DNA from: Candidatus Sungbacteria bacterium RIFCSPLOWO2_01_FULL_47_10
Lineage (GTDB): Bacteria; Patescibacteriota; Minisyncoccia; Sungbacterales; GWA2-42-14
Assembly: GCA_001820675.1 (NCBI GenBank)
Contig: MHQO01000061.1
Coordinates: 1-13,207, forward strand
DNA length: 13,207 nucleotides
Direction of reading: 5' to 3'
Below the pieces are notes generated by a model, which made no database searches, was not told the origin of the DNA, and worked only from the letters and a program-made list of their open reading frames with translations. The position numbers and the translations under genes were made by a program. The number at the start of each line of letters is the position of its first letter. The stretch's first letter is position 1. Of this stretch, positions 3,734-9,853 are shown piece after piece.

Positions 3734-3810
3734 TATTGCCGCTCGGAGTGTTTCATGGTATCCTTTATAGCAGACATGTAACAGATTGACACAGACGGAG
3801 GACAGATTTA

Positions 3811-3850
3811 CACGGATCACAGGTTCGCATGAGGATATCTGTGATCCGTG
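3811..3850. repeat. 12-bp perfect inverted repeat upstream of the DksA-like gene
   Basis: CACGGATCACAG (3811-3822) and its reverse complement CTGTGATCCGTG (3839-3850) surround a 16-nt spacer. Pairing continues imperfectly outward (ACAGATTTA on the left against CGGGTCTGT on the right). It lies 34 bp before the start codon of the next gene. It lacks a T-run, so it is not an obvious terminator, and it overlaps the phased repeat units at 3844-3881. Confidence 0.75.
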
Positions 3851-3881
3851 CGGGTCTGTAAAAAATCCGTGCCTATCCGCG
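3844..3881 (+). repeat. Helically phased ATCCGTG repeat block ending two bases before a start codon
   Basis: ATCCGTG at 3844-3850, a degenerate unit GTCTGT near 3854, ATCCGTG at 3865-3871 and ATCCGCG at 3875-3881. Starts of the clear units are 21 and 10 bases apart, close to whole helical turns. The last unit ends two bases before the ATG at 3884. A related block with ATTCG(T/C)G units lies before the gene at 8810-9853. Confidence 0.7.
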
Positions 3882-5490: not shown

Positions 5491-5520
5491 AAGCCCCGAC
5501 CTTGTATAAGGTCGGGGCTT
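5491..5520 (+). terminator. Terminator hairpin after the histidine kinase gene
   Basis: AAGCCCCGACCTT (5491-5503) pairs perfectly with AAGGTCGGGGCTT (5508-5520) around a GTAT loop: 13 bp, very GC-rich. The tail on the plus strand is short (ATTAAG). On the minus strand the stem is followed by GAATTTTTTG, so the element may also stop transcripts arriving from the tRNA side. Confidence 0.85.
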
Positions 5521-5521
5521 A

Positions 5522-5535
5522 TTAAGAGGGAGCTG
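5522..5535. repeat. 14-bp copy of the tRNA-Lys anticodon-arm sequence
   Basis: TTAAGAGGGAGCTG at 5522-5535 is identical to 5628-5641 inside the tRNA-Lys gene (positions 25-38 of the tRNA, including the anticodon) and lies in the same orientation. It sits 57 bp beyond the 3' end of the tRNA and directly against the terminator hairpin. Such partial tRNA copies can be leftovers of site-specific integration, but no integrase or element is visible. Confidence 0.7.
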
Positions 5536-5582
5536 TCCCGATTTTTACAGTAATTATAAAACAAAGAAGAATTGAGGATCCT

Positions 5583-5676
5583 CGATTCTGTGTCCGCCCC
5601 CCGAGACTCGAACTCGGAACCGTCTCCTTAAGAGGGAGCTGCTCTACCAATTGAGCTAGAGGCGGACACAGAATCG
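5583..5676. repeat. 16-bp perfect inverted repeat enclosing the tRNA-Lys gene
   Basis: CGATTCTGTGTCCGCC (5583-5598) and GGCGGACACAGAATCG (5661-5676) are exact reverse complements. Five pairs belong to the acceptor stem and eleven lie outside the mature tRNA, so the precursor can form an acceptor stem about 11 bp longer than the tRNA itself. A short palindrome GAGGATCCTC (5574-5583) adjoins the left arm. Confidence 0.85.
5593..5665 (-). tRNA. tRNA-Lys (anticodon CTT)
   Basis: 73 nt, with no encoded CCA. The cloverleaf was folded by hand on the minus strand: acceptor CCGCCTC/GGGGCGG (one T-G pair), TA, D-stem GCTC/GAGC with loop AATTGGTA, anticodon stem GCTCC/GGAGA (outermost G27-A43 mismatched), loop CTCTTAA giving anticodon CTT, variable CGGTT, T-stem CCGAG/CTCGG with loop TTCGAGT, discriminator A. 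It reads AAG lysine codons. It is oriented like the tRNA-Pro genes further upstream, and no convincing promoter of its own was seen. Confidence 0.93.
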
Positions 5677-5698
5677 GGACTCTGTCAATTGACCTGCT

Positions 5699-5732
5699 CG
5701 CCATAGCATTAGCGAAGGCGGGGCTATGGGCG
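5699..5732. repeat. Hairpin-forming sequence between tRNA-Lys and the tRNA-Pro pair
   Basis: CGCCATAGC (5699-5707) pairs with GCTATGGGCG (5723-5732) with one bulged G, enclosing a 15-nt GC-rich loop. On the plus strand it is followed by AAAATTTTT, which is weakly terminator-like; on the minus strand it has no T-run. The 46 bases from here to 5778 show nothing else recognisable. Confidence 0.5.
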
Positions 5733-5843
5733 GAAAATTTTTAATGTGAGCAAAATGGCGCTCCCGTTAACAACTAAACCGGGGTGCAGAGAATGGTTCG
5801 ATACGACTCACCACAGGTTGAACTCTGTCTTCACGCACCCTTG

Positions 5844-5950
5844 CCCCATTAGAAATCTACTTTTCGGGATGCTGGGAATCGAACCCAGTCTTTACGCACC
5901 CGAAGCGTACGTACTGCCGGTATACTACATCCCGACGATTTCTAACAGGG
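5844..5950. repeat. 14-bp stem bringing the two halves of the interrupted tRNA-Pro together
   Basis: On the minus strand CCCTGTTAGAAATC (5950-5937) pairs with GATTTCTAATGGGG (5857-5844): 14 consecutive pairs, two of them G-T. These arms lie directly outside the inner tRNA-Pro and inside the anticodon loop of the outer one. They extend its anticodon stem into a long helix carrying the inner tRNA at its tip. An alternative register pairs CACCC with GGGTG nearer the anticodon stem. Confidence 0.75.
5864..5934 (-). tRNA. tRNA-Pro (anticodon CGG), nested inside another tRNA gene
   Basis: 71 nt with a perfect 7-bp acceptor CGGGATG/CATCCCG, C1-G72 and A73 as expected for proline tRNA. D-stem GTAT/GTAC with loop ACCGGCA, anticodon stem TACGC/GCGTA with loop TTCGGGT (anticodon CGG followed by G37, typical of proline), variable AAGA, T-stem CTGGG/CCCAG with loop TTCGATT. 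CCA is not encoded. All features point to a functional tRNA for CCG codons. It lies within the anticodon-loop insertion of the outer tRNA-Pro-like gene, on the same strand. Confidence 0.93.
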
Positions 5951-6042
5951 TGAACGTGCGTACTGCCGGTATACTACACCCCGAATAAAATAGTGAACCC
6001 CAAAGCGTATACCTGTCCTGATATTATCGAAAGATACTGCAG

Positions 6043-6062
6043 AAAAATAACGTATCCGTTAT
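6043..6062 (-). terminator. Short terminator overlapping the stop of the coiled-coil gene
   Basis: On the minus strand ATAACG (6062-6057), loop GATA and CGTTAT (6052-6047) are followed by a T-run (6046-6042). The stem has only 6 bp and includes the TAA stop codon, so it is a weak candidate. It separates the protein gene from the tRNA-Pro pair, whose promoter was not identified in 5984-6042. Confidence 0.5.
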
Positions 6063-7114
6063 CTTTTTTCAGAGTTCCGGTAAATAGTATTTAAAATCTC
6101 TTTCTTCCAATGTATTCTTTCAGCTTGTTCTCCTCCTTCTTTAAGCAGGTTCTCGCGAAGTCGATAACTTAGATGATTTACAACCAGCATTCGCGTACCT
6201 TTTATATTTGTAAATCTAGTATCAACAATTTTGGCCTTGTCCATAAGCTCGCGGTAGCGTCTCGTAAGTTCCGATGCCCTAACCAGCTCCGCGAATGTAT
6301 TATTTAATGCATCATCCTGCTGTTGTGCGGCAGTCGCCGCTTCAAATTCTTTTTCGTGTTTTAGTACGAGGTCAATCGCCGCTTTTTCTCTCCCTTGAAA
6401 TAAGCCAAGCTCCTTTCGTCTCTGCTTTAATCTTGCGATAAGCTCCCTTGGCGATTCTGATCCATGATATATTAATTCGTTTTTCATTGCTGGCTTATTC
6501 CTTAACACACCGCGCGCATCATTTAGAATATTGTAGACAATAGCTCCTGTTTCCCGAACAACTGCCCCATTTTCATAGATTTTGTGTTTTATATCTTCGG
6601 TTTGTTGCGCATGGTTAATAATCACCTCTTCTAATTTATCTGTTTCGAGTTCAAGTTCCTTAACCGCCTTTTCATATGCTTCTTCTGCTGTGCGCGCGCT
6701 CTTTTCCATTTCTGCCGACTCAACAATCCGTGTACCGATTTCCGGCTGCTCGTATATTGATTTAATGCGGTTGTTTATATGCCCAAGATCACTCTCGATT
6801 GAAACCACCTGTTTTTCAAGCTCTTTAAGTTTTGCCTTACCCTCTTCGTCAAGAAGGCCATTTTCATTTACTGCCCGGAAATATTCAACTGTGTCATTGG
6901 CTTTGTCCGAAAGTGTTTGTCTTTTTCGCGCTTCCTCAATTAAGGCATCGTGTTCCGAGATTTGTGTTTCAATATGTTTCTTTTTTTGTGTTTCCATTTC
7001 TGCGACTTTTTGCCGAAGTTCTTCAGAGGCGCGTTGCAGTCCGTCAAGAGTTAACTCATCGCTATTCTTATGAACTTCGGCTTGTCCTGACTCGCGCTCG
7101 CGTTCTGTTTCCAT
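6059..7114 (-). CDS. Coiled-coil protein of unknown function
   Basis: 351 residues from the ATG at 7114. I do not recognise a family. The protein is hydrophilic and very rich in Glu, Lys, Gln and Arg, with long stretches predicted as coiled coil (about 22-75, 93-130 and 145-185). A basic, less repetitive C-terminal half follows, with Arg-rich pieces such as ELIARLKQRRKELG and VNHLSYRLRENLLK. There is no signal peptide or membrane helix, so it is probably cytoplasmic and perhaps structural or DNA-associated, but nothing shows this directly. A TTG at 7159 would add 15 residues; the ATG was preferred although neither start has an SD. It lies downstream of the DUF155 fragment and HAD gene on the same strand; AT-rich sequence at 7190-7218 may hold a promoter, with no clear consensus. 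The coding call rests on the long open frame and a plausible protein composition. Confidence 0.75.
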   Translation of the reverse strand: METERERESGQAEVHKNSDELTLDGLQRASEELRQKVAEMETQKKKHIETQISEHDALIEEARKRQTLSDKANDTVEYFRAVNENGLLDEEGKAKLKELEKQVVSIESDLGHINNRIKSIYEQPEIGTRIVESAEMEKSARTAEEAYEKAVKELELETDKLEEVIINHAQQTEDIKHKIYENGAVVRETGAIVYNILNDARGVLRNKPAMKNELIYHGSESPRELIARLKQRRKELGLFQGREKAAIDLVLKHEKEFEAATAAQQQDDALNNTFAELVRASELTRRYRELMDKAKIVDTRFTNIKGTRMLVVNHLSYRLRENLLKEGGEQAERIHWKKEILNTIYRNSEKR

Positions 7115-7218: not shown

Positions 7219-7451
7219 TCACTTTCCGATAAAGGCAAAATACAAATCAAAAATTAAAAGAATTGTCCAGCCGAAAAGCAAAACGAACCATCCAATAAGC
7301 TCGATCCGTTCCCACGAAAGACTGAACCGTTCAGTCGCGATCGAATAAATGTCTTCAAGCGCCTCAAGCTTGTCTTTAATCTGCGATCTCCATTCGGAAA
7401 ATTTGAATTTAGCCCCCGCCATGTCATACAGCCGCGCAGAATACCAATCCC
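7219..7451 (-). pseudogene. Orphan C-terminal copy of the DUF155/RMD1-type gene
   Basis: Bases 7224-7451 match 8818-9045, the 3' end of the full DUF155 gene, with no indels at a constant offset of 1594. I count 27 mismatches over 228 positions, about 88% identity. The fragment covers the last ~75 residues (from WYSARLYDMAG) and stops abruptly 4 bp from the HAD stop codon. From an internal ATG at 7422 it keeps an open frame of 67 codons ending in TGA at 7219, with a hydrophobic helix like the parent's. Of 20 changed codons, 16 are synonymous and the other four give mild changes, except Ala to Phe. It may therefore be a still-translated small membrane protein rather than a dead remnant. No SD is seen before ATG 7422, but coupling to the HAD gene ending 34 bases upstream is possible. 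Confidence 0.8.
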
Positions 7452-8809: not shown

Positions 8810-9853
8810 TTATCTCGTTCCGATAAATGCGAAATATAAATCCGCAATCAGGATGATCGTCCATCCGAATAAAAGGACAAACCATCCAATAAGCTCGATC
8901 CGTTCCCACGAAAGACTGAATCGTTCTGACGCGATCGAATAAATGTCTTCAAGTGCTTCAAGCTTGTCTTTTATCTGCGTTCTCCATTCTGAAAATTTGA
9001 ATTTAGCCCCCGCCATGTCATACAGCCGCGCAGAATACCAATCCCCAATCAATTTGATATCGCGGTCAAGACTCAAAAATTCCGAAAGCGATGTTGCGCG
9101 CACCTCGATGATGGTCTTTAGCGCGTTCCGAATTTCGACACCGCCGAATAAATATGTTTTTTGCTGGGCCCGCGCAAACACATCCGCAACATGCTTCAAT
9201 CTCCCCTCGAAGAATGAGTCGAGAATACGATACCGCAGGAGCTGGTAATTGGCAAGCTCCAAAAGCTCGATTGTCGAGGCAAAATCTCCTTCGGGGTCGA
9301 AAATGAACGCGCCGTCCCAGTCGATAATGACCAAATCATTTTTTGCGTACTTGATGGAGGTGGCAAGCGTTGATTTGATTTCTTTTTTGTCGAGCGGAAG
9401 CGTCTCGGACTTAAGGAAGCCCGCGATTTTATCGGACATCGAAAAAAATTGCTCCGGCCCTCCGGAATACTTCCCGACCGCGATAACAGAATACTCCTCC
9501 GTTACTTCCTTTTTTCCGCGTCTTCGTTCAAATATCTTATAGCAATTTTCCAGAAGAGAATCCTGAAGTGACAACACATTTTCCGCAAATACATCCTCAA
9601 GATTTACGACCGCCTCAATAATCAATATATCCGGCGCATACATTTTGATCGAATATTCGACTTCCTGCGCCGGAAGGCCGTTATATTCCGGAATTGACTG
9701 TTTTTCAGATGCAACCAAAAACTGCTTCGGAATGATCTCCTCAAAATAATGCGGAGCGCTCTTAAGCGATTTGAATTCGATCGCTTCACCTTTTGGGGCG
9801 CGTTTTGCCTGCCCCATGACGAGGGTGATAAGTTGTCCGTTTACCTTCTGCAT
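8810..9853 (-). CDS. DUF155/RMD1-like membrane-anchored protein
   Basis: 347 residues. The second half shows the pattern I associate with the DUF155 (RMD1/YagE) family: LLRYRILDSFFEGRLKHV (205-222), a helical stretch, LIGDWYSARLYDMAGAKFKF (268-287), the WRTQIKDKLEALEDIYSI region (290-307), and a C-terminal hydrophobic hairpin of about 25 residues (319-344). The first half is an alpha/beta region with DLVIIDWDGAFIFDP (173-187). Family members are membrane-anchored through the C-terminus; the yeast relatives are mitochondrial and their biochemistry is unclear. Start: ATG 9853 follows immediately on a repeat unit (CATTCGCG then ATG), with no SD; Met13 is the alternative. The 3' end is duplicated at 7224-7451. 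It is separated from valS upstream on the same strand by 85 bp filled by the repeat block. Confidence 0.8.
   Translation of the reverse strand: MQKVNGQLITLVMGQAKRAPKGEAIEFKSLKSAPHYFEEIIPKQFLVASEKQSIPEYNGLPAQEVEYSIKMYAPDILIIEAVVNLEDVFAENVLSLQDSLLENCYKIFERRRGKKEVTEEYSVIAVGKYSGGPEQFFSMSDKIAGFLKSETLPLDKKEIKSTLATSIKYAKNDLVIIDWDGAFIFDPEGDFASTIELLELANYQLLRYRILDSFFEGRLKHVADVFARAQQKTYLFGGVEIRNALKTIIEVRATSLSEFLSLDRDIKLIGDWYSARLYDMAGAKFKFSEWRTQIKDKLEALEDIYSIASERFSLSWERIELIGWFVLLFGWTIILIADLYFAFIGTR
8818..9045. repeat. 228-bp direct repeat, parent copy (partner 7224-7451)
   Basis: Same orientation, no indels, about 88% identity by hand alignment. Identity is near 100% at the 5' (high-coordinate) side and drops to about 70-75% over the last 70 bp at the 3' end. 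The 1366 bp between the copies carry the HAD gene, the small-RNA candidate and the NYN gene. Confidence 0.9.

Follow-up and report, generated by a model that had tools for sequence, protein, structure and literature searches.

Why does a complete tRNA gene lie in the anticodon loop of a second tRNA gene for the same amino acid, and which of the two is the gene in use? The question is raised by a locus on the minus strand of the window, by which we mean the whole stretch of 13,207 nucleotides analysed here. A preliminary description of this DNA had proposed that one tRNA-Pro is nested in another, paralogous one, and had left undecided whether the outer gene is joined into a working tRNA or is the relic of a tandem duplication.

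Structure of the nested locus

The inner gene, tRNA-Pro(CGG) at 5864-5934 (minus strand, as are all features of the nest), is intact according to both ARAGORN and Rfam (RF00005, 56.5 bits). It is bounded by a 5′ arm, CCCTGTTAGAAATC (5937-5950), and a 3′ arm, GATTTCTAATGGGG (5844-5857), which can be read in the sequence and are paired in the predicted fold; 5950-5937 and 5857-5844 form 14 pairs, 12 of them Watson-Crick and two G-U. Outside the arms are the two parts of another tRNA-Pro, identified by reading the sequence and by a flank similarity score. The 5′ part (5952-5983) consists of an acceptor strand (5977-5983), the D arm, and the 5′ anticodon strand, and ends in TTC. The 3′ part (5780-5840) consists of GGGT, the 3′ anticodon strand, the T stem, and the other acceptor strand (5780-5786). 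The acceptor strands CGGGGTG (5983-5977) and CACCCCG (5786-5780) form seven of seven pairs, an 18-nucleotide stretch of the D arm, TAGTATACCGGCAGTACG, is identical in the outer and inner genes, and the T stem is made of CAGAG (5827-5823) and CTCTG (5791-5787). The proposed nest is thus confirmed where the preliminary description had placed it.

Removal of 5951-5841 (111 nucleotides) joins TTC to GGGT, which is the loop of the inner tRNA-Pro(CGG). Apart from the inner tRNA and its arms, this insert has only a few linker bases and no integrase gene. Against the flanks of the other tRNAs of the genome, where the control maxima are 18 for the upstream and 10.5 for the downstream half, the two outer halves score 25 and 12.5, respectively. 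Because both scores exceed the control maxima and the arrangement recurs elsewhere, the halves are more than a chance resemblance. The minus-strand fold that had been called for contains the paired 14-bp arms and has z = -4.4, a value equalled by none of 200 shuffles when the inner tRNA is counted in; a wider stretch gives z = -2.8, equalled by two of 100.

Two features had escaped the preliminary description. The T loop of the outer copy (5792-5822) is 31 nucleotides long, compared with the normal seven, and a third, decayed layer can be made out by eye beyond the outer gene. On the 5′ side the remnant of this outermost copy (5996-6012) includes GCTTTGGGGTT (6006-5996); on the 3′ side (5748-5771) there are GTTAACGGGAGCGCC (5771-5757) and a partial hairpin. 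By eye, GCTTTGGGGTT before and GTTAACGGGAGCGCC after the nest are the signature of a second type of insert, type A, found in relatives. As far as the sequence can be read, decay is strongest in this outermost layer.

Around the nest (5500-6300), promoter and terminator scans give no promoter-like site on the minus strand and no terminator-like site. RNA families other than tRNA stay below the gathering score in the window and in the nest loci scanned with Rfam at an E-value threshold. The neighboring tRNA-Lys(CUU) (5593-5665, minus strand; ARAGORN and Rfam) lies within a 10-bp inverted repeat (5676-5667 and 5592-5583). Elsewhere in the window, a 67-amino acid frame (7219-7422, minus strand) duplicates the C-terminal end of a 347-amino acid protein (8810-9853, minus strand) encoded about 1.4 kb away, and reads as a displaced gene end. 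There is also a near-perfect hairpin of 58 bases at 3802-3859, with a sub-threshold match to mir-2329 (29.1 bits; cut-off 90).

The window is not the only such place in its genome (1.097 Mb in 84 contigs, 87% complete, with 32 Rfam tRNAs). The proline anticodons are CGG (the window), UGG, and GGG, each with a single gene. A search with the window nest recovers a second nest, of tRNA-Pro(UGG), on another contig (C50); its arms, TTGAGCACCATATT and AATATGGTGCTCAA, are unlike those of the window, and its outer acceptor strands are CGGGCCG and TGGCCCG. The tRNA-Pro(GGG) has a remnant downstream (score 14.5; control maximum 11.5), tRNA-Thr(UGU) has two outer layers by eye and so is a threefold nest, and arms are present at the Thr, Arg(UCU), Lys, and Asp tRNAs. 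The flank score test leaves unflagged the Thr nest and the downstream half of the UGG nest, both readable by eye, and it flags Phe and Arg because the next tRNA gene adjoins. The same genome contains a tRNA-less stretch of 115 nucleotides (L082:1795-1909) at the start of an open frame; its ends, TCCCGTTAGAAGT...ACTTCTAACGGGA, are by eye related to the arms, and it has 13-bp inverted-repeat ends and TGGAA direct repeats. Next to it, again by eye, CCCCGTTAGAAAC...GTTTCTAACGGGG lies between TGAA repeats, with a run of N inside.

Nests and arms in other genomes

We are interested in how widely nests of this kind occur. A BLAST match to the nest sequence is found in all six genomes of the family, although any tRNA-Pro can produce one. 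Reading of the loci themselves finds nests in five genomes (G000, G002, G003, G004, and G005) and only partial upstream copies in the sixth (G001). Within the class, a pattern built on the Pro-type D arm is found at 11 places in 10 of 383 genomes, from seven families, and the control has none. A looser version returns 29 stretches from the GTDB contigs (one genome per species); 22 of their titles name a Patescibacteria group and seven say just “bacterium.” The inner gene is a tRNA-Pro in 27 of them; of the other two, one is a tRNA-Gly(CCC) nest of three layers and the other a short stretch with no tRNA call. The pattern guarantees the upstream half in all 29, while the downstream half is missing or unreadable in several (e.g., L055, L067, and L068). 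Many of the outer shells are broken or have substituted T loops, the inner and outer copies are nearly identical in some nests (e.g., L049 and L051), and many Pro tRNAs have no nest at all. Upstream of Pro UGG nests (L095, L023, and L024) we also observe palindromes like GTTTCATATGAAAC, which seem to resemble parS sites and would suggest a conserved locus in the family.

The D-arm pattern detects only tRNAs with that D arm, and it is therefore uninformative on other isotypes. We considered whether nesting is limited to Pro and Gly(CCC), and rejected this as an artefact of the pattern, as a motif taken from the arms finds other isotypes. The arm motif, GCCCCGCACYAAAW, is present in 37 of the 383 class genomes, with 80 occurrences in all (the reversed-pattern control has 11), and partner arms show that several copies have terminal inverted repeats in common. 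The 70 stretches that we read, 30 from the search itself and 40 retrieved in addition, contain 72 distinct occurrences. A tRNA lies at most 70 nucleotides away in 38 of the 72, with 21 anticodons represented; at least two of these 38 are the two arms of a single nest (L175).

The other 34 occurrences have no tRNA nearby. In two of them the arms enclose a 5S rRNA (L144, 82.0 bits; L152, 79.5 bits), and in L152 a piece resembling another 5S can be seen by eye upstream of the armed one. In this same stretch, upstream of the armed 5S, the 23S rRNA contains a group I intron (L152:57-302; Rfam, 71.9 bits). Some are bare hairpins (L151, L154, and L155); of the remainder, several, in G205 and other genomes, enclose a repeated element, and some resemble chance matches in coding DNA. 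A non-tRNA repeat of about 130 nucleotides is found in L193-L198 (all in G205), L170, L166, L201, and L205. Its ends are those of the arms (CTTGCCCCGCACCAAATTTTGAC...GTCAAAATTTTGGTGACGGGGC) and its interior is conserved (GCCGCTTTCGTTTCCATCC...CGCCAGCTTATTC); it might be a structured RNA, or the element from which the arms derive. We also note, by eye, an inverted repeat CCCCGCACTAAATTTTGC...GCAAAATTGATGCGGGGCAAG in L079, near the match at position 1501. It sits in what seems to be the 3′ terminus of a gene for type I restriction specificity, with a second copy of that gene end behind it; here a protein-coding gene offers a parallel to the tRNA nests.

Does the displaced copy match the isotype of the inner gene? 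Among 210 evaluable places (218 distinct), 61 tRNAs are armed, compared with 12 when downstream flanks are swapped; since the loci were chosen for nests or for the motif, 61 of 210 is not a prevalence. A scorable 3′ half of a tRNA lies downstream of 39 of the 61, and in 31 cases the best isotype of this half agrees with that of the inner gene. Seven of the eight mismatches are intact neighbor genes (score 36), and the eighth is L177. For unarmed tRNAs a scorable 3′ half is present in 38 of 149, with the same isotype in 18, ordinary neighbor genes being counted. Taken together, nesting is between genes of the same isotype and usually in the anticodon loop, the arm families occur also without an RNA gene, and the outer copies have suffered losses and acquired additional inserts in their loops. 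The insertion site can differ: by eye, an inner Arg gene lies in the outer T loop in L157 and an inner Lys gene in the outer D loop in L203. Also by eye, CAAG flanks both layers of the Gly nest L047, and no target duplication is seen at the Pro type B sites.

Here we give an example where an un-nested counterpart exists. G133 has an un-nested tRNA-Pro(CGG), and in the syntenic place of G150 the corresponding tRNA is split, TTCG|GGT, around an inner tRNA. The proteins encoded upstream are 78% identical over 287 residues; the gene, presumably that of a CCA-adding enzyme, also precedes the nests of G220 and G005 (41-47% identity). Over the first 29 nucleotides, the G150 outer copy agrees with G133 at 27 positions and with G190 (same genus, other locus) at all 29, and the inner copy agrees at 23 and 21, respectively. 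The inner copy instead matches the un-nested tRNA of G113 at 67 of 71 positions, in a DNA match of about 97 nucleotides that extends beyond the tRNA itself. When all 71 columns are compared, the outer copy loses its lead (54 matches to G133, compared with 56 for the inner copy) because a short hairpin has taken the place of its T arm; the case for two lineages is built on the 5′ part and the acceptor. From these comparisons, it is most likely that the outer copy of G150 is native to the locus and that the inner copy arrived later. Such a foreign origin does not extend to all nests, given the near-identical pairs such as those in L049 and L051.

Replacement, scaffold, or relic

How might such loci arise? 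We regard it as somewhat probable that tRNA loci are rebuilt by serial, self-replacing insertion of palindrome-bounded segments that bring replacement copies. A segment would enter a loop of the native tRNA gene. As the insertion destroys that gene, it would survive only if it came with a functional gene for that tRNA; the inner copy would then supply the tRNA, and the outer copy would be the displaced former gene. Repeated rounds would produce Russian-doll loci with the oldest copy outermost. In the window, ordinary tRNA end processing would release the inner tRNA-Pro(CGG) only. The match of isotypes, the excess of the arm motif over its control, the synteny of G150 with G133, the direct repeats TGGAA and TGAA, the greater decay of the outermost window layer, and the lack of splicing enzymes over the cut-off all point to insertion, with mechanism and expression both inferred. 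The paired helices of the type A inserts and the Pro type B sites without target duplication are evidence against it.

The helices deserve attention. We aligned eight type A inserts from Pro nests with the inner tRNA removed, omitting a ninth (L051) because its third hairpin is much longer. They form three hairpins, in which 98.1% of 208 cells are paired and 20 of 26 pairs have changed on both sides; none of 500 shuffles is paired as highly, and slid versions reach at most 53.4%, a comparison that favors the structure over its slid versions since it was drawn from the same related rows. These paired changes are the main result against a pure relic and are more than a dead relic requires; they also bear on the suggestion of the preliminary description that structure holds the relic together. 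Three processes could have produced them: an RNA scaffold may be favored by selection, misfolded forms of the inner tRNA may be selected against, or template switching may correct the palindromes. Whatever the origin of the nest, the shell and arms might be selected as a folding or processing scaffold of the inner tRNA, e.g., a double-stranded stalk cut before RNase P. The type A pairing, and the paired changes by which the UGG nests of G000 and G002 (two genera of one family) differ, speak for such a role. We nevertheless consider it rather unlikely, as in many cases the outer shell is broken or its T loop replaced, and as many Pro tRNAs are free of nests. We examined an excess of G-U over A-C as a sign of selection at the RNA level and set it aside: the arms proper have 16 G-U and 11 A-C (30 Pro loci), no clear signature, and inclusion of the outer stems gives 66 and 38 (48 loci, extended alignments). 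Six or seven acceptor pairs together with a T arm of normal size are found in 16 of the 29 GTDB stretches. With flanks swapped, however, the mean is still 12.7 and the maximum 19, so the acceptor pairing across the nest is not evidence of locus-specific pairing. Under serial insertion, palindromes may be corrected by template switching, which would keep the outer stems paired; alternatively, the pairing may persist since outer strands left unpaired would cause the inner tRNA to misfold. Type A inserts share a two-hairpin unit, GGGAATGC..GCATTCCC with AATTTTGCGAGAAGCAAAATT, which is seen also in hairpins resembling T arms and beside tRNA-Leu (L023, L029, and L084).

Could the outer copy instead be a working tRNA from which the insert, inner tRNA included, is spliced out? 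The exact CGG loop is restored by eye in the window and in L043 and L044, and 13 of 33 Pro nests give an ARAGORN tRNA of the same isoacceptor at some junction (three of 33 with halves swapped). However, the remaining 20 never do so, and the junction test is permissive, with any tRNA call in 17 of 33 nests and 10 of 33 controls. For the window itself, none of 3450 junctions of the outer halves gives a tRNA, presumably owing to the 31-nucleotide outer T loop. The type A inserts, by eye, do not restore the anticodon stem. Among the six family genomes, two of them less than 90% complete, the tRNA splicing endonuclease (PF01974) is found in none, whereas four archaeal controls are positive; RtcB (PF01139) exceeds the cut-off in none, with one sub-threshold fragment in G002. 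We have therefore dropped splicing as an explanation of the window, and the joined outer tRNA of the preliminary description with it; as a general account it is very improbable. Still harder to credit is an assembly artefact. Most of the genomes are metagenome bins and palindromes assemble badly, but nests occur in records of many projects, on contigs of up to 217,908 bases, and an armed tRNA-Lys is present in a one-contig genome (G121, L203).

The relic of a tandem duplication needs more discussion. The outer gene as a decayed copy, specifically a displaced relic, is the best reading. The signs of decay named beforehand, an intact gene elsewhere and lack of conservation in relatives, give a divided answer: no second tRNA-Pro(CGG) is found in the 87%-complete genome, and the arrangement recurs in relatives. 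Tandem duplication would have local, partial duplications of tRNAs shaped into palindromes later by template switching, with no mobile element involved; the near-identical copies in L049 and L051 fit this, and template switching is known to be able to produce perfect inverted repeats (PMC6649704). It is too narrow, however, since the arms belong to a palindromic family found at RNA genes of many families and also alone, and since at one locus, in G150, the inner tRNA is of a different lineage from the outer. We judge it improbable as the general origin.

Within the favored reading of serial insertion, it is tempting to speculate further. A protein-less, palindrome-bounded cassette might carry a structural RNA gene as its toll, enter the loops of tRNA and perhaps 5S genes, and persist where its cargo replaces the broken gene, so that tRNAs of foreign lineage could take over native loci and leave nested fossils. 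We put this forward tentatively, as a possibility that we hold to be less than even; if true, part of the tRNA set of Patescibacteria turns over by cassette replacement.

Comparison with known systems

The pattern points to an undescribed way to replace essential RNA genes in tiny, mostly uncultured bacteria. If the reading holds, an essential tRNA gene present in one copy can be exchanged with no lethal interruption, the broken tRNA halves and odd leader-trailer stems of Patescibacteria are accounted for, and the layered fossils, older toward the outside, trace the replacement of tRNAs between lineages. For annotation there is a warning, as tRNA finders report the inner gene only. The nests also make testable how a tRNA matures when a long helix extends its acceptor stem.

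Several known systems share features with the nests. Group I introns occur in bacterial tRNA genes, where they interrupt the anticodon loop, as the insert does here. The preliminary description had dismissed such an intron, rightly: the Rfam E-value scan gives no match to Intron_gpI in the window or in L021, L023, L024, L026, and L027. Bulge-helix-bulge introns of archaea and eukaryotes also interrupt tRNA genes mostly in the anticodon loop; unlike them, the insert of a nest is itself a tRNA gene, and the endonuclease that would splice it is the one found in none of the six family genomes. Integrative elements and phages use tRNA genes as attachment sites, and like the nests they target a tRNA gene, restore its function, and leave displaced tRNA pieces behind. 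In contrast to them, a nest insert is only about 100-250 nucleotides long, both halves of the target are displaced, and no integrase lies between. We also considered integron attC sites for the GTT...AAC motif and dropped them on the order of the half-sites.

The Rickettsia palindromic elements are small palindromes that insert into protein-coding genes whose product stays functional (Ogata et al. 2000, 2002), as described in PMC6649704, which also names template switching as a mechanism that corrects palindromes. The nests resemble them as small bacterial palindromes inserted into genes, and are set apart by that description in that the arms surround an entire RNA gene whose type is that of the target. 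In the open-access literature, the scope of our search, we found no account of one RNA gene nested within another of its own type.

MITE-like non-autonomous elements are short, have inverted-repeat ends, and carry no protein gene. By analogy, the arms resemble such inverted-repeat mobile elements: they share the inverted-repeat ends, the small size, and the lack of a protein gene, and direct repeats are visible by eye at two tRNA-less copies. The nests differ from them in lacking a target duplication at the Pro type B sites, in carrying a tRNA or 5S rRNA gene as cargo, and in having as their target the loop of a gene of the same kind. The nested arrangement appears to be new, and the machinery behind it may prove to be a known type of element.
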